Shown here: positions 12,054 through 22,222 of the stretch, piece by piece
How positions within the stretch are numbered: position 1 is the first letter of the stretch
Layout: each line of letters starts with the position of its first letter
NCBI RefSeq assembly: GCF_023161965.1
Contig: NZ_JALNTY010000002.1
Location: 336,552 to 400,551 of the forward strand
Direction: 5' to 3'
Length of the DNA: 64,000 nucleotides
DNA from: Anaerosoma tenue
GTDB taxonomy: Bacteria > Actinomycetota > Coriobacteriia > Anaerosomatales > Anaerosomataceae
Program-made: the position numbers and the translations under genes
The notes under the pieces: model-generated
Told to the model about the DNA's origin: nothing
Databases searched by the model: none
Seen by the model: the letters and a program-made list of their open reading frames with translations, nothing else

Positions 12054-15000
12054 TCACCCGCCGAGCATCGCCACCGTCACGTGGTGGACCGCGCCATCGT
12101 CCACCAGCGGTACACGGAGGTCGGGCAGGTCGACCCCATCGGCGCTCATGCGGGCGACACCCCTGTTCACGCCCCGCGGATTCTCGACGGAGATCTCGTA
12201 GCGTGACCCCCCGTAGCGGAACGTGGCGGAGAAGCCGGGCCACGACTTGGGGATGCACGGGTCGATCACGAGGAGCCGGCTATCGCCGTCGGCCACGGTC
12301 CTGAGTCCGAGGATCTCGCGCACTGCCGTGCGGTAGAACCACGCTGCGGATCCCGTGTACCATGTCCACCCGCCCCTGCCCGTGTGCGGGTCCGCCGCAT
12401 ACACGTCGGCAGCCAGCACGTACGGCTCCACCTTGTAGCGCTCCACCCCGTCACGCTCCCTCGTGTGCGTGATGGGGTTGATCAGGTCGAGCAGAGAGAC
12501 CGCCTCGTCGCCATCGCCCAGCCGGGCATACGCGAGCGCGACCCACAGTGCGGCATGCGTGTACTGTCCGCCGTTCTCACGTACACCCGGAACGTATCCC
12601 TTGATGTAGCCGGGGTCGTTCTCGATCCGGTCGAACGGCGGCGTAAGCAGCATGACGATGCCGTCGTCCCAGCGGACGAGCTCGCTCTCCACCGACTCCA
12701 TCGCCCTGCGCGCCCTGTCCGGATCTCCTTCTCCCGACAAGACCGACCACGCCTGGGCGATCGCGTCGATCCGGCACTCGGCGGCACGCGAGGTCCCGAG
12801 CGGTGTGCCGTCGTCGAAGTACGCTCTCCGATACCAGGCGCCGTCCCACGCGGAAGCGTCAGCCGCTGCCACGAACGACGCGGCTCGCTCGCGTAGGAGA
12901 GCGGCGGATCCCGCATCGCCGCGCACGTCGCAGACCTCGGCGAAAGCACGCATCGTCACGTCGAGGAACCATGCGAGCCACACGCTCTCTCCCTGGCCGC
13001 CTACGCCCACCCGGTTCATGCCATCGTTCCAGTCGCCGCCACCCATCAGCGGCAGGCCATGCTCGCCCGTGGGTGACAGCCGGAGCGCGGCGAGGCAGTG
13101 CTCGTAGACGCTGGCCACACGAAGTGACGACACGGGCTGCAGGTAGAGATCCTCACGGCCTTCCGGTACCGGCGGACCCTCCAGGTAAGGGGTCTCTACG
13201 TCGAGCACCGAGAGGTCGCCGGTCGCCCGTACGTAGTCCGCTACCACGAGCGGCAGCCAGTGGCGGTCGTCAGAGAAGTGCGTGCGGACCCCTCTGCCCG
13301 AGACCGGTTGCCACCAATGGAGCACGTCACCTTCGGGGAACTGACGCCGCGACGCCTCGACGATATGCTCCCGCACCATCTCAGGGCGGACGTCCATGAG
13401 CGCGAGGCAGTCCTGGAGCTGGTCTCGGAAGCCGAAGGCGCCGGATGACTGGTACGTGGCTGTCCGCCCCCAGGTGCGGCATGAGAGCGACTGGTACAGC
13501 GATGCGGTGACCATGGCGTCCAGCGCCGGGTCGGGCGTACTCACCCGCACCGTGTCGAGGATGGAGCGCCACGCGCCCTTCACCGACTCGAGCTCCGCAT
13601 CGACCGCGCCGGGTGCGCGCAGCCTCGCGATCGACGCGTGCGCCTCCTCCACCGTAGCGGTCTGGCCGAGGAGGAACACGACCTCGGCGCTCTCGCCGGG
13701 CCCGAGCTCCACCGGGCGCATCAACGCGCCGCAGTTGTCGTGGAAACGGCCGGTGAGGCCCCCGAGGAACGCCCTTCGCATCGCCGCCGGGAACCGGGGG
13801 TCGCCGTTGCGGCCGATGAACTCGGTGCGACTTGCGGTGAACGAGCCCACCTCGCCTGTGCAGGCGACGAACGCGGGCCGTCCCGGGAAGTCGAGGTTGA
13901 ACCAGCTGTGCGCCATGAGGGCGTTCGCAGTGTCGTCCCACCACGTGACCACGCGCTTCTGAGCGGCGCTCCGCGAGTCGCCCAGGCTCCACTCCACGAA
14001 GTGGGTGACCGAAAGCCTCCGCGGCGAATCGCCAAGGTTGGTCAGACGCAGCCTGGCCACACGCACGGGATCGCCGCTCGCGATGAACCAGTCGAGCGAG
14101 TGCTCGACCCCACGGGTCGTGTGCTCGAACCGTGAGTACCCGCGGCCATGCCGGATCACGTACGGGTCACGGTCCCGGACCGGGAGAGGGGTGGGGCTCC
14201 AGAACTCGCCCGTCTCCTCGTCTCTCACGTAGAGGCACTCGCCGGTCCCGTCGGAGACCGGATCGTTGTTCCAGGTCGTGATGCGGTTCTCGTGGCTGTT
14301 CTCGGCCCATGTGCAGCCGATGCCGGCCCCGGAGATGAGCGTACCGAAGTGCGGCCCCGCGATCACGTTCACCCACGGGGCGGGTGTGTTCTCGTCATCC
14401 TGGAGCACGATCACGTATTCGTCGCGATCGAGATCGAAGCCGCCGTAGCCGTTATCGAACGCGAGCGACGGCCGCTCGAACACCGGTGTGGGATGGGGCG
14501 CCGGGTCCGCCGACGCGTGAAAGTCGGGCGGCGGGTCGGGTCGCTGCGCACGCCTATCCAACTGGAGGCCGATCGGCCCCCGGTCACCTTCGATGACGAC
14601 GCGAGCGACACTCTCGAGCAGGTTGAGGACCTCCGGGCGCATCTGGTCGGCCGTGCGAAGGAAGACACCACCGGGGCGGTCGGTCAGTTGCAGCGCGTGC
14701 CCGGTGCGGAAGAGCGTACGCAGGCGTCCGTCGAGATCGGATGCGTAGCCGGTGGGTCGCGTGTTGAGTATCACGAGGTCGGTCTCGAACCCCTGGCTCC
14801 GCCAGTACTGATGGGCGAGCAACGCCTGTCGCGCGAGAGGGGTCTGGTCCACCTGCTCGATCTTCAGCAGCAGGATCGGATAGTCGCCCGATATGCCTAT
14901 CTCCCAGAGCCCCGATATGGGGAGGCGGTTCTCGACCTCCGTATGCACCTTGAGGGTCGAGTACGGATCGGTGAGCAGCATGCGGGAGGCCAGGCGCAGG

Positions 15001-18000
15001 AAGGTGACCGACTCCTCGGGCGTGATCCCCAGGTCGCGCAGTTCGATCCGGCTCGTGGACCACGCAAGGTCTGCCGCGCGCTGCGCGTTGCCGATGTCGT
15101 GGTACTTCTCGGCGAGATACACCACGCGTTCGCGCGAGTCGGCGGCGCCGGTGATGAACGCGAGGTGCGCGGACTCACCCGGCGGCACCACCAGGGGCTG
15201 CCGGATGGCGCAGATGGGGTCGAGCACCGGGCCGGTCGTCGCGGTCAGGCGGCCGCCGTCGTAGACCGCCTGAGCGCTCGCCGGGGTCCGGAGCCGACCG
15301 AGGAAACGGGCCCGGTCGGTCTCGTACGACCACGAACACGCGTCGTGGGCGTCACACGCCAACGCGTGGAGGCCCCAGTACCGCGGCTCCTCTGAGGACC
15401 GCGGACGGCGGGAGAACAGGAGCGCGGTCTGCTCGTCCAGCGCCTCGGTCTCCACGAACAGGTTGCTGTACGCCTTGTGCGCGTGATCGGCCCCGCGCGG
15501 CGCCAGGGTGACCTCCAGGTACGACGTCACCTCGAGCGAAAGCGTCTCGCGTCCGTGGTTCGTGACCGTCACCCGCCGCACTTCCACATCGTCCTCGGGC
15601 GAGACGATCACCTCGGTGTGCGTCTCGACGTTCCCATCGAGGCGGCGGAACTCGGCCTTGTCGGCTGAGAAGGTCACGTGGTAGTCGTCCGGCGTGGCCA
15701 GTGTCGGCTGGAACGCCGCGGACCAGATGGCCCCTGACTCGACGTCCTTGATGTAGATGAAGCTTCCCCAGCAGTCGCGGGTGATGTCCTCGCGGTAGCG
15801 TGTGACGGTACGGTCGCCCCACCTGCTGTAGCCGCCACCGGCGTTGGTGACCATCACCGAGTACAACCCGTTGGACAGGAAATGGGTCGAGGGCACCGGG
15901 GTGCCGGCGAGCGGGTAGGCGCGTGCCACCGGCGCGGGCACCTCCCGCACCGAACGCACGAACTCCACCTCTTCGGCCCTGGGCTGCGCTGCCTGGATGC
16001 GGCGGGGGACACGCTCCTGGAGCAAGAGCTCGGCCGAGGAGACCAGGGGGTCGGCATGGAACCGCTCCTGCATCCTCGACGCGGTGAGCATGTTGCCGAG
16101 CGCCAGCATACTCATGCCCTGGTGATGCGCCATGTATGCCTTCACGATGGCGCGCTCGGCCCCTGCGGGGACCCGGCCCGGGGTGTAGTCGACCGCCTCG
16201 TAGTAGCCGAACCGTCCCTCGGCTCCCTGACGGGTGAGCGCGACCAGGTTGTCGAGGCTCTCCCGCGGCGCCACCATCAGCGCGAGCACGGTGGCGTAGG
16301 GCGCGACCACCACATCGTCGGAGAGCCCCCGCTTGAGGCCCAGGCCGGGCACGCCGAACGCCTGGTACTGGTAGGTGAGCTCCACGTCTTTGGCGTTGAA
16401 CGCCGACTCCGAGACGCCCCACGGGACGCCTCGCTGGCGTCCGTACTGGATCTGTCTGCGCACGACACCTTCGTAGGTGCGGTCGAGCAACGTCCCCGGC
16501 CAGCTCTTCATCACCAGGAGCGGCATGAGGTACTCGAACATGCTTGCGCTCCAACTCACGAGCGCCGCACCGCCGTCGGTGCGCGTTATCGCACGCCCAA
16601 GCCTGAACCAGTGCTCCTGCGGTACGTCGCCCTTGGCGATCGCAAGGAAGCTCGCGAGGCGGCACTCGCTCGCAAGCATGTCGTAGTAGGAGTCGTCGAG
16701 CTTGCCCTCGGCGGTGTTGAACCCGATGGAGAAGAGCAGGCGGCGCTCGTCGAAGAGCATCGCGAAGTCGGTGTGCTCCCACATCTCCCGCGCGATGTCG
16801 GCCGAGAGCCTCATGCGGGCGAGCAGCTCGGTCGCCGCCGGCCGGGCGCCTCGGATGGCGGCAGCCACACGCGTCGCCCACGCCGCGTCCGCGTCGCCGG
16901 AGGCGGCAACACGGTCGAGCTCGGCAAGAGCGATCTCGAGTCCCTCGGCAAGCCCCACGAGACTCGGCACGTGATCGAGGAGGGGCGTCAGCTCCGCCGA
17001 GCGGACACCCGCGTGCGAGCCGTTGGAGGCGAGGACTTCGCGGGCCCATGGGGCGTAGGCATCCACCAGTCCGCGTGCCTTGTCCACGGCACCGGCCACT
17101 GCGAGCGTCGATTCCACCGCGCAGCCCACATCTTCCGTCATGCCGGGGGTCACGACCTCATCGAGGCGCGAGCGGAGAGGTCCGGTAAGGGCGTGCAGGC
17201 CGTCGAGGAGGATGAGCCATTGGCCGAGGTTGGTGGGAGCGTCGTCGAGCCTGATGCGGCGTATCACCTCTTCGAGTGCGGTGCGCGTCTCGGCTATCGC
17301 CGGATGCGCCCGGACAGCGCCGGTGGCCGCCGCGAGGTCCTCCAGCGCGAGGCGCGCGGTGTCGGTGATGCCCGAGAGGATCTCGACGGACAACAGCGGT
17401 CGTTCGGTGGCCTCGAGCAGCGCTACACGGAGGACCAGGAGATGGCCGGCGAGGTTCCCGGAGTCGACCGTTGAGACGTAGGTGGGCCGGAGCGGCTCCA
17501 GCGTCGTGGTGTCGTACCAGTTGTAGAAGTGGCCCCTGAAGCGCTCCATGCCGACCATGGTGGTGAGCGTGCTGGCGACGTGCTCCGACAGCTCGCGCAC
17601 GGTGATATAGCCGAGGTCGTACGCGGTGACCTCCGAGAGCAGCTGCAGCCCGATGTTGGTGGGTGAGGTCCGATGCGCGACCTCGCCCTTGGGATCCTCC
17701 TGGAAGTTGTCGGGCGCCAGGTGGTTGTCCTCCGCGGTCACGAAGGTCTCGAAGAAGCGCCACGTCTTGCGTGCGGCATGGCGCATCGCGGTCACGTCGT
17801 CGTCGGTGATCTCCGGCGATGGCGGCGGGGAGGGGCGGCTGGCGAGCCAGGCGGAGACGGGAGACGCCACCCAGAGAGCCAGCACGGGCACGACCGGGAG
17901 CGGTGCGAGGGGGCTGCCGGCGGCCGCCGACGCGGCGACGACTGCGGACGTGCCGACCGCAGCCGAAGGCCACATCCGGGACACGAAGGCGTGGACCGAG

Positions 18001-20777
18001 CCGGAACCGAGCCGGCGCTCGGCCTCGGCGGCGGTCTCCCACTCGAGGAGGTTCCGCTTGCTCACCGCCATCCGCCAGAGCGCACGCGCGATCGCGTCGG
18101 TCATCAGTTGTGCCTGGTGGGGTATCACCGCCACGTCGAGCGCGGTCCTGAGCACGTCGCGACGGAGGTCCGAGAGAAGCGCCGCGCGGTCGCTCCGTGT
18201 CTCGGCGGGGGCCCGCCGCGTGAGCGAGTCGAGCAGCCCGAACAACAGAGGGAAGAGCAGTATCACCGCCACCACGCCCAGCCACCACCACGAGGGCGCC
18301 GGGAGGACGGCGACGCCGGCCACCACGAACGCCACCGTGGCCATGGGCCGCAGCGAGCGCCGCAGGTTGTCGACGATCTTCCAGCGGTGCAGGAGCGTGA
18401 GGGGGTTCCGCTCCCTTCCTTCAGGGGTGGGCACCCGCGGCATGAGCCACGGCACGGTCTGCCAGTCGCCCCGGATCCAGCGATGCAGCCGCGCGCAGTG
18501 GGATATGTAGCTCGCGGGCTGGTCGTCGTAGACCTCGATATCCGAGGCGAGGCCCGTGCGCAGGTAGGATCCCTCGAGCAGGTCGTGGGAGAGGAGCGTG
18601 TTCTCCGGGAAGCGGTCCTCGAGCACCGCGTTGAAGACGTCCACCTCGAATATCCCCTTGCCGGTGAACGAGCCTTCGCCGAAGACGTCCTGGTAGGTGT
18701 CCGAAACGGCGCCCGCATACGGATCGACCCCTGTGACCCCCGAGTAGAGCCATGCGAACAGGCTGCCTGCCGAACCCTCGATCGACATGGCCACCCGCGG
18801 CTGGATGAGCCCATAGCCGGTGCGCACCGTCCGCGTCACGGGGTCCACGACGGCGCGGTTGAGCGGGTGGGCGATCGTTGAGATGAGCTTGCGCGCACCG
18901 TCCCGCGGCAGGACCGTATCGGTATCGAGCGTGATGACGAACGTGACGCCCGCATACTCGTCCGGGTCTGCATCCACCACGGTGAACGAGGTGTCGCTCG
19001 CGCCTCTCAACAGGCGGCAGAACTCGCTCAGCGCGCCTCGTTTGCGCTCCCAGCCCATCCATGTCCGGTCGGCCTCGCTCCATGTGCGCCCACGCACGAA
19101 CAGGGCGAACGGGCGGTCATGCGGCCCCCCGTATCGGTCATTGAGCAGGCTGACGCCCTGTCGGGCAGCCTCGATGACGGCGTCGTCGCCGGCCGCCTGC
19201 TGTTCGGGGCCGCCGCGGAGATCCGCGAGGATTGCGAAGCGCACGTTGGGGTCGCGGTTCGCGAGGTAGCCGACCTCCATGTTGTCGATCACGTGCTGGG
19301 CGGCCTTGGCGGACGTGAGAAGAGCCGTATACACGACCATGGTGCTGTGGGCCCGGGCGACCGGTCGCCGGTGATCGATCTTCGCGAGCCTGCGGGGCGG
19401 CCACAGCCATGCGGCCAGCCGGTTCGCGATAGTCATCCCCACCTCGGAGACGGGCAGGAGCGCAAGGACGCCGAGGAGGATCGCCGTCCACGCCGTGCCT
19501 GTCCGCGTCCAGGCGAACACGGCGATCGAGGAAGCGAGCGCCAACGTGGTGCCGCCGAGCACGCCCCAGTAGATGGCGCCGCGGGCCGACAGCGGCCCAC
19601 GATGTATGCGCTCGCGCAGGCGCGGTCGATAGCCTACGGAGCGCTCGAAACCGTAGCGCCCGCGGCTTATGAGGTAGTGGCCGACATGGCTCCCGAGGGT
19701 GTCGGCGGGGTCCGCCGCCAGCGCTTCGAGACAGTGGCTGATAACGGCCTCGGCGACACCGGCCTCGGTGAGGGCGCTGCGCTGCGAGAGCTCCTCCACG
19801 GTGTGCCGGTATCTGTCGCGGCTTGCGAACTCCATGCGCGGGTACACACCGGCGGGGTCTTCCCGGAGGATCTGCTCCACAACGCTGACGCGCTCGAAGA
19901 ACTCACGCCACTCCAGGGCATCGAGCAGGCGGATGCTGGTGATCGCGTTGGCGATCGACACCTGATCGGCGGCCTGCTGCTGATGCTCGGCCGTCGTGAG
20001 ACGCTCGAGGTCGGCGTCCCGCTTCCGGAACTCGGTCTCCAGCCAGTCGGCGATCGGGCCGAGATCGCCCTCGATGCCCGTGAGCCGCTGCGAGAGACGG
20101 AGCAGGAACGCGGGCGGCGCGTCAGCGTGGGCGGCCTCGAGTTCCGCTATCCGCGCCGCCAGGGCATCCGGCCCCTCATCGGCGGCCACCACGAGCCGAT
20201 CGGCGAAGCGCTCTCCACCCACGATAGCCTGGTGGCTCTGCAGGATCCGCAGTGACAGCCGCCTCAGGTTCTCGATGAGGGCTGTCCGCACCATGATCGG
20301 CACCGCCCAGACCTCGCCGATCGAGAGGTCCGTGACCTGCTGGTACGCGGTGACGACACCCGTGAGCGACTCCTCATCGACCCGTGAGTCGGTGTGGGCG
20401 AGCAGGAACGCCATCAGCTCCATCACGCGCGGGTACCCCGCGAACGATCCCTCGGTCAGTCGCGGCAGGCGGGCGCCGTAGCGCGCGGGGAGATCGTCCA
20501 CGACGAGGCGCACCTGCTCCTCGACAAGGTAGTAGTTGTCCAGCAGCCACTCGGCGGCGGGCGCTACGGGTATGTCCTCTCGCACGTCGGCGGCCAGCGT
20601 GCGATAGACGGCGGCGATCTCGTCGGATGCGCGTTCCAGCAGGCCGAGGACAGGCGTGCGGGCGCTCGTGGGGCCGGAGGCCCAGCGCTGCCCGCGCGCG
20701 AGCGTGCGCGCGGCCGCGGCTATACGGTCGGCGCCGAGCAGCTCCCCGCGGAACGGCTCATCGTCGCGCGGGCGCAA
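12054..20777 (-). CDS. ndvB: Cyclic beta-1,2-glucan synthase-like protein (GT84 + GH94)
   Basis: At 2907 residues this is the largest gene here and matches NdvB/ChvB/Cgs in size and domain order. Two or more membrane helices lie at about 400-470. A GT84 glycosyltransferase follows, with the LDTDT (DxD-like) motif near 612 and HRWIRGDWQ (Q/RxxRW-like) near 766, then more membrane helices (about 810-845 and 935-975). A glycoamylase-like domain covers about 1010-1560. Two glycosyltransferase-36 beta-sandwich units begin near 1620 and 2100. Last is the GH94 phosphorylase barrel, with its catalytic GGGDWNDGM near 2581 and GGWTWYTGSAAWFYR near 2810. Such enzymes polymerise UDP-glucose on themselves and trim chain length by phosphorolysis. 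The start is TTG without a good Shine-Dalgarno, so the N-terminus is uncertain. No NdvA-type exporter is adjacent. Confidence 0.9.
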   Translation of the reverse strand: MRPRDDEPFRGELLGADRIAAAARTLARGQRWASGPTSARTPVLGLLERASDEIAAVYRTLAADVREDIPVAPAAEWLLDNYYLVEEQVRLVVDDLPARYGARLPRLTEGSFAGYPRVMELMAFLLAHTDSRVDEESLTGVVTAYQQVTDLSIGEVWAVPIMVRTALIENLRRLSLRILQSHQAIVGGERFADRLVVAADEGPDALAARIAELEAAHADAPPAFLLRLSQRLTGIEGDLGPIADWLETEFRKRDADLERLTTAEHQQQAADQVSIANAITSIRLLDALEWREFFERVSVVEQILREDPAGVYPRMEFASRDRYRHTVEELSQRSALTEAGVAEAVISHCLEALAADPADTLGSHVGHYLISRGRYGFERSVGYRPRLRERIHRGPLSARGAIYWGVLGGTTLALASSIAVFAWTRTGTAWTAILLGVLALLPVSEVGMTIANRLAAWLWPPRRLAKIDHRRPVARAHSTMVVYTALLTSAKAAQHVIDNMEVGYLANRDPNVRFAILADLRGGPEQQAAGDDAVIEAARQGVSLLNDRYGGPHDRPFALFVRGRTWSEADRTWMGWERKRGALSEFCRLLRGASDTSFTVVDADPDEYAGVTFVITLDTDTVLPRDGARKLISTIAHPLNRAVVDPVTRTVRTGYGLIQPRVAMSIEGSAGSLFAWLYSGVTGVDPYAGAVSDTYQDVFGEGSFTGKGIFEVDVFNAVLEDRFPENTLLSHDLLEGSYLRTGLASDIEVYDDQPASYISHCARLHRWIRGDWQTVPWLMPRVPTPEGRERNPLTLLHRWKIVDNLRRSLRPMATVAFVVAGVAVLPAPSWWWLGVVAVILLFPLLFGLLDSLTRRAPAETRSDRAALLSDLRRDVLRTALDVAVIPHQAQLMTDAIARALWRMAVSKRNLLEWETAAEAERRLGSGSVHAFVSRMWPSAAVGTSAVVAASAAAGSPLAPLPVVPVLALWVASPVSAWLASRPSPPPSPEITDDDVTAMRHAARKTWRFFETFVTAEDNHLAPDNFQEDPKGEVAHRTSPTNIGLQLLSEVTAYDLGYITVRELSEHVASTLTTMVGMERFRGHFYNWYDTTTLEPLRPTYVSTVDSGNLAGHLLVLRVALLEATERPLLSVEILSGITDTARLALEDLAAATGAVRAHPAIAETRTALEEVIRRIRLDDAPTNLGQWLILLDGLHALTGPLRSRLDEVVTPGMTEDVGCAVESTLAVAGAVDKARGLVDAYAPWAREVLASNGSHAGVRSAELTPLLDHVPSLVGLAEGLEIALAELDRVAASGDADAAWATRVAAAIRGARPAATELLARMRLSADIAREMWEHTDFAMLFDERRLLFSIGFNTAEGKLDDSYYDMLASECRLASFLAIAKGDVPQEHWFRLGRAITRTDGGAALVSWSASMFEYLMPLLVMKSWPGTLLDRTYEGVVRRQIQYGRQRGVPWGVSESAFNAKDVELTYQYQAFGVPGLGLKRGLSDDVVVAPYATVLALMVAPRESLDNLVALTRQGAEGRFGYYEAVDYTPGRVPAGAERAIVKAYMAHHQGMSMLALGNMLTASRMQERFHADPLVSSAELLLQERVPRRIQAAQPRAEEVEFVRSVREVPAPVARAYPLAGTPVPSTHFLSNGLYSVMVTNAGGGYSRWGDRTVTRYREDITRDCWGSFIYIKDVESGAIWSAAFQPTLATPDDYHVTFSADKAEFRRLDGNVETHTEVIVSPEDDVEVRRVTVTNHGRETLSLEVTSYLEVTLAPRGADHAHKAYSNLFVETEALDEQTALLFSRRPRSSEEPRYWGLHALACDAHDACSWSYETDRARFLGRLRTPASAQAVYDGGRLTATTGPVLDPICAIRQPLVVPPGESAHLAFITGAADSRERVVYLAEKYHDIGNAQRAADLAWSTSRIELRDLGITPEESVTFLRLASRMLLTDPYSTLKVHTEVENRLPISGLWEIGISGDYPILLLKIEQVDQTPLARQALLAHQYWRSQGFETDLVILNTRPTGYASDLDGRLRTLFRTGHALQLTDRPGGVFLRTADQMRPEVLNLLESVARVVIEGDRGPIGLQLDRRAQRPDPPPDFHASADPAPHPTPVFERPSLAFDNGYGGFDLDRDEYVIVLQDDENTPAPWVNVIAGPHFGTLISGAGIGCTWAENSHENRITTWNNDPVSDGTGECLYVRDEETGEFWSPTPLPVRDRDPYVIRHGRGYSRFEHTTRGVEHSLDWFIASGDPVRVARLRLTNLGDSPRRLSVTHFVEWSLGDSRSAAQKRVVTWWDDTANALMAHSWFNLDFPGRPAFVACTGEVGSFTASRTEFIGRNGDPRFPAAMRRAFLGGLTGRFHDNCGALMRPVELGPGESAEVVFLLGQTATVEEAHASIARLRAPGAVDAELESVKGAWRSILDTVRVSTPDPALDAMVTASLYQSLSCRTWGRTATYQSSGAFGFRDQLQDCLALMDVRPEMVREHIVEASRRQFPEGDVLHWWQPVSGRGVRTHFSDDRHWLPLVVADYVRATGDLSVLDVETPYLEGPPVPEGREDLYLQPVSSLRVASVYEHCLAALRLSPTGEHGLPLMGGGDWNDGMNRVGVGGQGESVWLAWFLDVTMRAFAEVCDVRGDAGSAALLRERAASFVAAADASAWDGAWYRRAYFDDGTPLGTSRAAECRIDAIAQAWSVLSGEGDPDRARRAMESVESELVRWDDGIVMLLTPPFDRIENDPGYIKGYVPGVRENGGQYTHAALWVALAYARLGDGDEAVSLLDLINPITHTRERDGVERYKVEPYVLAADVYAADPHTGRGGWTWYTGSAAWFYRTAVREILGLRTVADGDSRLLVIDPCIPKSWPGFSATFRYGGSRYEISVENPRGVNRGVARMSADGVDLPDLRVPLVDDGAVHHVTVAMLGG

Positions 20778-20903
20778 CGTGTCAACGACATCGCTGTTGA
20801 TTCGATCACCTCATGTGCGGCCGTAAGGACGTGGTGGCGCCGGTCGCGCCCATCCTATTGTGCCACGTCACGAACGGCGGACGCGCCGGGTCCGGCACGT
20901 TCG

Positions 20904-20933
20904 TTGCTGGAGAGATACCCACAGGGGTATATT
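20904..20933 (+). promoter_or_regulatory. Promoter of the rhodanese-selenothioredoxin gene
   Basis: TTGCTG (20904-20909) and TATATT (20928-20933) are spaced by 18 bp, giving a start about 20940, some 22 bases before the ATG at 20962. A palindrome (next entry) fills the spacer and overlaps the -10. Confidence 0.5.
20915..20930. promoter_or_regulatory. CsoR/CstR-like operator palindrome ATACCC-N4-GGGTAT
   Basis: A perfect inverted repeat ATACCC (20915-20920), ACAG, GGGTAT (20925-20930) covers the spacer and first half of the -10. Operators of the CsoR/RcnR/CstR repressor family are G-tract palindromes of this kind flanked by AT. CstR represses persulfide-handling operons containing rhodaneses, which fits the gene controlled here. 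No CsoR-family gene is present in the window, so the regulator is inferred only. Confidence 0.45.
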
Positions 20934-20961
20934 GTGCATCCACCGATCCTCCGGAGGTCTG

Positions 20962-21663
20962 ATGAGTCGCGCCAAGTGGATACTTCTTGCAGTGGGGGCC
21001 GTCGTCGTCGCGGCCGTCGCCATCGCCCTGTCGTCGGGGTCTCCGCAACCCGGCCTGGTGGGGAACCGCGATGTCGAGAAGCTGCGCGCTGAGGGTGCGC
21101 GCATCGTCGATGTGCGCACAGCGGCGGAGTTCACCGGCGCCCACATAGAGGGTGCCGAGAACGTTCCGCTGAGCGACATCGCGGCAGTGGCTTCGAGTTG
21201 GGACCGGAGCATCCCGGTGGTGTTGTACTGTGCCGTGGGTGACCGGAGCGACACCGCAGCGGAGATCCTCGCTTCGATGGGCTTCGAGCGCGTCTACGAC
21301 CTGGGCGGAGGCATAGTCCAGTGGGATGGCGCGCTGGCCGGGGGCGCCGGCGCCACGGTGGCGTCCGCCGACGTGGAGACGAACGGCATGCCCGTGATGT
21401 ACGAGTTCTACACTGATTGGTGACCCAGCTGCACCGCTATGGAGCCTGTGGTCGACAGGCTGCGCACCGAGTACGAGGGAGTCGTCGAGTTCCGCCTCGT
21501 GAACGCCGAGACCGATGCCGAGAGCCAGGCGCTCGCGACGCGGTTCGGGCTGCAGTACGTGCCGTCGTTCGTGTTCCTCGACAGCGATGGCACCCAGCGC
21601 GATCTGGTGGTGGGCGAGGTGAGCGAAGAGGATCTGCGGGCGGTCCTGGACTCGCTGCAGTGA
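20962..21663 (+). CDS. Membrane-anchored rhodanese-thioredoxin selenoprotein (in-frame TGA = Sec)
   Basis: Read through the TGA at 21421-21423 this is one 233-residue protein. Residues 5-24 form an N-terminal membrane anchor. Residues 35-125 are a rhodanese domain with active-site Cys90 in YCAVGDRS. Residues 145-233 are a thioredoxin fold whose active site reads DW-U154-PSC157, with cis-proline at VP201SF. If TGA stopped translation, the first product would end at the tryptophan before the active site and the second half (same frame, 21424-21663) would lack it. A hairpin 19 nt past the TGA resembles a bacterial SECIS. The ATG at 20962 has GGAGG 4 bp upstream. Predicted role: persulfide handling on a periplasm-side membrane face, with the thioredoxin domain reducing the rhodanese persulfide. 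Trans-acting sel genes are outside the window. A simple Cys-to-TGA nonsense mutation is the main alternative. Confidence 0.85.
21443..21461 (+). promoter_or_regulatory. Candidate bacterial SECIS hairpin
   Basis: AGCCTGT (21443-21449), loop GGTCG (21450-21454) and ACAGGCT (21455-21461) form a perfect 7-bp stem. The loop starts 27 nt after the TGA, inside the 16-37 nt range usually accepted for bacterial SECIS elements. It presents G then GU in the apical loop, as in the fdhF element whose loop also contains GGUC. Confidence 0.65.
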
Positions 21664-21688
21664 GGCGGTGCTGCGAGTAGGGCCTCAC
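21660..21688 (+). terminator. Weak hairpin at the selenoprotein stop codon
   Basis: GTGAGGC (21660-21666) pairs with GCCTCAC (21682-21688) around a 15-nt loop, starting on the TGA stop. There is no T tract. It could slow or end the transcript but is not a standard intrinsic terminator. Confidence 0.3.
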
Positions 21689-22047
21689 CGAGGTGGGTAC
21701 AGACTTTGTGAAGGCGTATCGTATCCCCAGGGATCGAGGTGACGCCATCGACAGGAGCAGTGAAGCGGGTTTTCCACCGGGGTGGCCGATGAAGGGTCCC
21801 GCCGACCATGCGTGGGTGTGTAGCCATATCCACGAGATCGAATGGTTCGGTACGTGTGTTCTTCCTGTCCGGTCGACAACGCAAGTGCAGGACCGCGCGA
21901 TGGAAGCGGGATACCGGGCATAAGCCTTTGAAGCCTGTGAGGGTGCGGCCAACGGGCGGCAGCGTCCTTTGGACCAAGAGCTCTCAAGGATGGCCCTTTG
22001 GAGGGGCGTCTCGGGCGGTGCGACTGCCACCCCGGTGCGTGATATCT

Positions 22048-22147: not shown

Positions 22148-22222
22148 GGGCGAGTGGCGCAACGGGAGCGCACCTGCTTTGCACGCAGGGGGTTGTCGGT
22201 TCGAATCCGATCTCGTCCACCA
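22148..22222 (+). tRNA. tRNA-Ala (UGC)
   Basis: Acceptor GGGCGAG (22148-22154) pairs with CTCGTCC (22212-22218, one G-U), then A and encoded CCA (22220-22222). The anticodon stem CCTGC/GCAGG closes loop TTTGCAC, giving TGC at 22180-22182. The T-loop is GGTTCGAATCC. Confidence 0.97.

Follow-up and report, generated by a model that had tools for sequence, protein, structure and literature searches.

A hairpin behind an in-frame UGA, probably a bacterial SECIS element, in a rhodanese-thioredoxin gene conserved across one order of Coriobacteriia

In a 64,000-nucleotide stretch of the Anaerosoma tenue genome, referred to here as the window, the reading frame 20962–21663 contains an in-frame TGA (21421–21423) with a short hairpin just downstream. 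The locus thus raises the question of whether this codon ends translation or is read as selenocysteine (Sec), and whether the hairpin is the bacterial SECIS (bSECIS) element that would direct such a reading. As described in an excerpt of PMC13188914, the bSECIS model comprises an apical loop of 3–9 nt on an upper stem of 4–16 bp, with G in one or both of the first two loop positions, often with G or U next to it, a UGA-to-apical-loop distance of 16–37 nt and an MFE of at most −7.5 kcal/mol.

The start codon (ATG 20962) is preceded by GGAGG, and the encoded protein combines a rhodanese and a thioredoxin domain behind a probable membrane anchor (Table 1). Both domain matches pass their gathering cut-offs, with 62.4 versus 22.2 bits for PF00581 and 50.0 versus 23.5 bits for PF00085. 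The rhodanese active-site loop takes the form C-x-x-G-x-x-S, with its active-site Cys90 kept in 10/10 aligned homologues, and the UGA stands where the thioredoxin motif has its first Cys. An AF2 model of the fusion protein gave a pLDDT of 81 and a pTM of 0.51, on the basis of which its domain arrangement was set aside. A promoter/terminator scan predicted no sigma-70 promoter or terminator within 20780–21760. The neighbour of the gene is a single 2907-aa ORF on the minus strand (window 12054–20777), which we take to resemble a cyclic beta-glucan synthase, and a tRNA-Ala (TGC) gene lies downstream on the plus strand (window 22148–22222).

Table 1. Features of the locus, in window coordinates.
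Feature	Position	Strand	Remarks
Inverted repeat TACCC-ACAG-GGGTA, CsoR/CstR-type operator-like	20916–20929	+	32 nt before the start codon; putative role
Predicted selenoprotein gene, rhodanese-thioredoxin fusion	20962–21663	+	233 aa; Sec would be residue 154; own stop TGA 21661–21663
N-terminal hydrophobic segment, residues 1–24, probable membrane anchor	20962–21033	+	From sequence; AF2 helix 3–24, pLDDT <60
Rhodanese domain, residues 39–122	21076–21327	+	Pfam PF00581, E = 6e-17
Rhodanese active-site loop C90-A-V-G-D-R-S	21229–21249	+	Cys90, Gly93 and Ser96 invariant in 10 aligned homologues
Thioredoxin domain, residues 137–230	21370–21651	+	Pfam PF00085, E = 3.2e-13, with UGA translated as C
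In-frame UGA, U154, opening the redox motif W-U-P-S-C	21421–21423	+	TGA in 76/76 covering matches
Probable bSECIS hairpin	21443–21461	+	Core 21444–21449 with 21455–21460; outer A21443-U21461 pair unconserved
Apical loop GGUCG	21450–21454	+	Loop positions 2–3 are GU in 69/69 distinct sequences

If the UGA were a true stop, the gene would end at 21423 and the thioredoxin half would be either a separate gene or a dead remnant. An ATG at 21439 does open a 74-aa ORF, and a table 11 reading splits the gene at this point; however, the thioredoxin domain already starts before the UGA, at residue 137, and the UGA sits at the catalytic Cys. Comparison with relatives bears directly on this reading. Homologues were found in 59/69 genomes of the host's order (E = 1e-20 or better), and the 69 genomes gave 77 matches. 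All 76 matches that span the site carry TGA, and none has TAA, TAG or a sense codon, the site being read directly in 74 of them (G039:C55 and G049:C106 were left out). Of these matches, 53 are the rhodanese-thioredoxin fusion and the others thioredoxin-only or partial. Past the UGA, 52 of the 53 full-length homologues are open over 77–80 codons, and the remaining one runs into a contig end. Both the invariant UGA and the conserved downstream frame argue against termination, which we regard as a very unlikely reading.

Eight thioredoxins of the genus carry Cys (TGT/TGC) at the same site. Since the UGA is in frame, falls on a conserved redox position and aligns with Cys in homologues, the product is a predicted selenoprotein. 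Of 346 genomes drawn at class level, 54 gave a match at 1e-25, and 54/54 belong to the same order; a scan of GTDB species genomes, which reaches close relatives only, returned 13 loci filed under Coriobacteriia, Actinobacteria, Actinomycetes and Actinomycetota MAGs, including two filed as Slackia and Aeromicrobium. Together, these sequence comparisons indicate that the selenoprotein design is very probably a conserved feature of one order of uncultured Coriobacteriia.

The host genome (G000; 2.1 Mb, 99% complete) carries selD, selA, selB and tRNASec in one cluster (C4:155460–160440), the tRNASec match scoring 72.5 bits, above its cut-off. This complete Sec machinery argues against a code change by which the genome would read UGA generally as an amino acid, as do the Cys codons that other thioredoxins have at this site and the use of UGA as apparent stop in 11/53 homologues, the window gene included. 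Apart from the in-frame UGA itself, nothing speaks for a code change, and we consider it extremely improbable. Over the 69 genomes of the order, 47 have both the gene and selA, 12 the gene only, seven selA only and three neither; no association emerges from this set, in which both are near-universal and many genomes are fragmentary. Most of the 12 genomes with the gene but no selA match are incomplete; three of them (G024, G027 and G037) do have selB or a C-terminal piece of it. Neither selA nor full selB was detected above cut-off in G004 (96% complete) and G025 (98%), which we tentatively read as assembly gaps. The UGA gene is retained with an intact hairpin in both genomes.

The hairpin is formed by seven Watson-Crick pairs between AGCCTGT (21443–21449) and ACAGGCT (21455–21461) around the loop GGTCG (21450–21454). 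The gap between the TGA and the stem is 19 nt and that between the TGA and the loop 26 nt, the 27th nucleotide being the loop start; the 7-bp stem, the loop, the 19-nt distance and the loop at 27 nt lie exactly where a preliminary description had placed them. Folded in isolation, the 19-nt hairpin reaches −10.5 kcal/mol, and the 17-nt core alone −8.9. The same description had argued that seven perfect pairs at this place would be a strong coincidence in a coding region. This argument turned out to be weak, because the surrounding 58-nt region is no more stable than its dinucleotide shuffles (z = −0.18), because a Watson-Crick stem of at least 7 bp, at a SECIS-like distance and with a G in its loop, follows 15 of the 1653 window TGAs on both strands (49 of 1653 at a threshold of at least 6 bp), and because 12.1% of 20,000 synonymous recodings yield a SECIS-like hairpin of at least 7 bp. 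In these recodings, 20 downstream codons were swapped for synonymous ones according to local codon usage. Given the z score, single-sequence folding was rejected as support for the element. It is conservation and covariation among homologous sequences that raise the hairpin far above chance, and this comparative evidence decides.

Covariation was analyzed in an ungapped alignment of 74 loci (69 distinct sequences), from which the more distant L022 was excluded and read by hand. The six core base pairs are formed in 99.5% of 414 cells, and pairing falls to 25–52% when the partner is slid by 1–3 columns. Both sides are changed in 48 cells, versus 12.8 in shuffles. RNAalifold, run unaided, returned exactly these six pairs and none else. 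Ranked by pairing, the helix comes first among 1605 placements of 6 bp over −60..+120 (a 180-nt alignment), with shifted registers of the same hairpin as runners-up and the best independent helix 73% paired. A ranking by double changes alone was uninformative, as it was led by variable, mostly unpaired upstream columns (36–43% of cells). The outer A21443–T21461 pair is present in only 40 of the 69 distinct sequences; the conserved helix is the six pairs 21444–21449/21455–21460, and the seventh lies outside this core. The claim of seven perfect pairs therefore holds for the window sequence and narrows to six across homologues. A lower stem (UGGUG/CACCG) of the predicted fold was dropped from the element, its pairs surviving in just 16–71% of sequences.

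The hairpin might instead be a by-product of coding for Pro-Val-Val-Asp-Arg/Gly-Leu with GC-rich codons, the UGA being handled by some other recoding or by a SECIS elsewhere. The frequency of comparable hairpins among synonymous recodings and the unexceptional folding of the region speak for such an origin. However, all six pairs are intact in 67/69 distinct sequences, and two protein-preserving nulls of 1000 trials each stay below this number: a synonymous codon redraw gave a mean of 4.4 such sequences (maximum 13), and a permutation of codons among sequences sharing the column's amino acid gave a mean of 40.6 (maximum 47). The hairpin exists in 24 distinct sequences, including GCCUGU-GGUCG-ACAGGC, GCCCGU-GGUCG-ACGGGC, GCCGGU-GGUCG-ACCGGC, GCCCCU-GGUCG-AGGGGC and ACCCAU-CGUGG-AUGGGU. 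On a FastTree phylogeny of the 53 fusion proteins, inferred with the hairpin-coding residues removed, parsimony counted 11 double changes that restore a pair, three single changes after which a standard pair remains, and none that breaks a pair (counts from one tree and one parsimony tracing). The stem covariation proposed as a check in the preliminary description is thus present among the homologues that keep the TGA. As a control, the eight Cys-coding thioredoxins of the genus keep just 2–4 of the 6 pairs, and nowhere else in −60..+120 is a helix conserved to a similar degree. The loop GU, on the other hand, coincides with the first two letters of an invariant Val codon, so that its invariance is confounded and no proof by itself. 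Taken together, the compensatory changes, the nulls and the Cys control leave very little probability for a coding by-product.

The hairpin agrees with all four criteria of the bSECIS model (a loop of 5 nt, a stem of 7 bp of which 6 are conserved, GG at the loop start and a distance of 26 nt, at −10.5 kcal/mol), and the SECIS-like spacing and loop G/GU earlier ascribed to it likewise fit the published model (26 nt; GGUCG). Because the UGA is conserved, the Sec machinery is present, the stem has evolved by compensatory changes, the null results fall short of the observation and the Cys thioredoxins lack the hairpin, we assign a probability of about 0.95 to the interpretation that the hairpin is a genuine bacterial SECIS and that the internal UGA would be read as selenocysteine in a rhodanese-thioredoxin protein. 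The SECIS of E. coli fdhF, which has a bulged U in its stem and a GGUC loop, is similar in lying behind the UGA within the ORF, with an upper stem of 6–7 bp, a 5-nt loop with GGUC, a 26-nt UGA-loop spacing and an energy under −7.5 kcal/mol. The window hairpin differs from it in having no bulged U.

Further UGA-containing genes were observed in the host genome. The thioredoxin-like gene L015 (G000:C3:59419–59739) has UGA in UxxC and a SECIS-like hairpin, GCCCAU-CGUGA-AUGGGC; L022, likewise thioredoxin-like (G000:C2:5781–6188, minus strand), has UGA in UxxC and the hairpin CGCGGC-GGUC-GCCGCG 23 nt past the UGA. Judging from these motifs, both are predicted to be additional thioredoxin-like selenoprotein genes. 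A covariance-model search of the host's own genome recovered the gene and a paralogue at C3 (E = 4e-15), the remainder being weak. One weak match (L128; E = 0.09) is L022 itself; two others were rejected, L126 being the Cys thioredoxin L018, picked up by sequence, and L127 having no in-frame UGA in any thioredoxin motif. The host selD also contains an in-frame TGA (AGUAAK; residue 11 of the matched stretch), with a candidate SECIS, GGGGUC-CGGGA-GACCUC, 16 nt after the UGA, at the lower spacing limit (L067 1501–1570). The host selenophosphate synthetase, the selD product, is likely a selenoprotein itself.

SECIS elements, Sec-thioredoxins and rhodanese selenoproteins are already known. Like the Sec-thioredoxins (UxxC, PF00085) in the excerpt of PMC13188914, the window protein has Sec predicted at the first position of a CxxC-type motif in a thioredoxin fold; it differs in the membrane anchor and rhodanese domain added in front and in its motif, W-U-P-S-C. 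The nearest named fusion is TsoB (NF045694), a rhodanese/DsbD fusion-like protein that also joins rhodanese and thioredoxin-like modules in one selenoprotein. TsoB, however, has a UxxxxU motif with two Sec (same excerpt), whereas the window protein has no DsbD membrane domain; membership in this family was rejected at a score of 49.3 against a cut-off of 805 bits. Rhodanese selenoproteins of forms 1–4 share the rhodanese domain, but the Sec motif given for them in that excerpt is the rhodanese family's, whereas the window rhodanese keeps Cys90 and Sec would lie in the thioredoxin part. A fusion of rhodanese and thioredoxin that has Sec in the latter was not found in searches among open-licence PMC papers or in excerpts of PMC13188914 and PMC9312934.

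Following the E. coli model, the apical loop would be bound at its G-U core by SelB loaded with Sec-tRNASec, which would supply Sec for the UGA at 21421 upon arrival of the ribosome. Another 79 codons would then be translated before the true stop at 21661, and the product would be a rhodanese-thioredoxin protein, anchored in the membrane, whose thioredoxin motif, U-P-S-C, contains Sec. Because Cys90 is kept in the C-x-x-G-x-x-S loop, the sequence suggests that the rhodanese handles sulfane sulfur. Cys90 may accept sulfane sulfur to form a persulfide, which the Sec/Cys pair may then reduce; alternatively, this pair may act on a neighbouring persulfide or disulfide.

The upstream box may be the site through which a CstR-like repressor controls transcription. 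The exact sequence TACCCN4GGGTA precedes 37/52 full-length homologues, and 8 more have it with one mismatch; the scan covered a 130-nt stretch 490–620 nt before the UGA, where the shuffled expectation is 0.00015 per locus (n = 52 of 53, as L085 has too little upstream sequence). Excerpts of PMC10318464 report that CsoR-family repressors bind pseudo-palindromes with C and G runs and that rhodaneses are often under CstR repressor control, and an excerpt of PMC9774590 names Cys31/Cys60 as the sensing pair of the persulfide sensor CstR. The conserved TACCC-N4-GGGTA box is probably an operator of the CsoR/CstR type. The sole PF02583 (CsoR-family) protein of the genome has Cys43 and Cys72, 29 residues apart like the CstR pair, and a Ser at the expected position of the copper-binding His of CsoR. 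Its gene (L139; G000:C1 1474–1812, minus strand) is flanked by a thioredoxin gene on one side and a divergent cation-efflux gene on the other. The L139 locus contains two TACCC/GGGTA boxes, one at 483, which precedes the thioredoxin gene, and one at 1839 with a 5-nt spacer, between the repressor and cation-efflux genes. Since the box is conserved, the Cys pair is CstR-like and boxes occur at the repressor locus, control of the selenoprotein by sulfane sulfur via a CstR-like repressor is plausible. Genome-wide, the exact box occurs at 5 sites, versus 0 for a reversed control; its other neighbours are the thioredoxin beside the CsoR-family gene, an SBF-family transporter, a chemotaxis receptor and a MobA-FdhD fusion. 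A genome-wide regulon was rejected, as 5 sites are too few and the neighbours too mixed.

In this reading, a gene that the standard code splits in two becomes a full selenoprotein gene in 59/69 genomes of the order, and, with 24 distinct hairpins and 11 double changes, the locus offers a cleanly covarying SECIS within coding sequence. The predicted architecture, rhodanese followed by a Sec-containing thioredoxin, would connect the use of selenium with the chemistry of sulfane sulfur in a group that has received little study. More tentatively, this uncultured order of Coriobacteriia might have evolved a dedicated sulfur-selenium device, a membrane-anchored rhodanese fused to a Sec-thioredoxin and switched on by a persulfide-sensing, CstR-like repressor. 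Sulfane sulfur would be collected by the Cys of the rhodanese and reduced by Sec. If true, selenium supply would set the cell's capacity for handling reactive sulfur outside the membrane.
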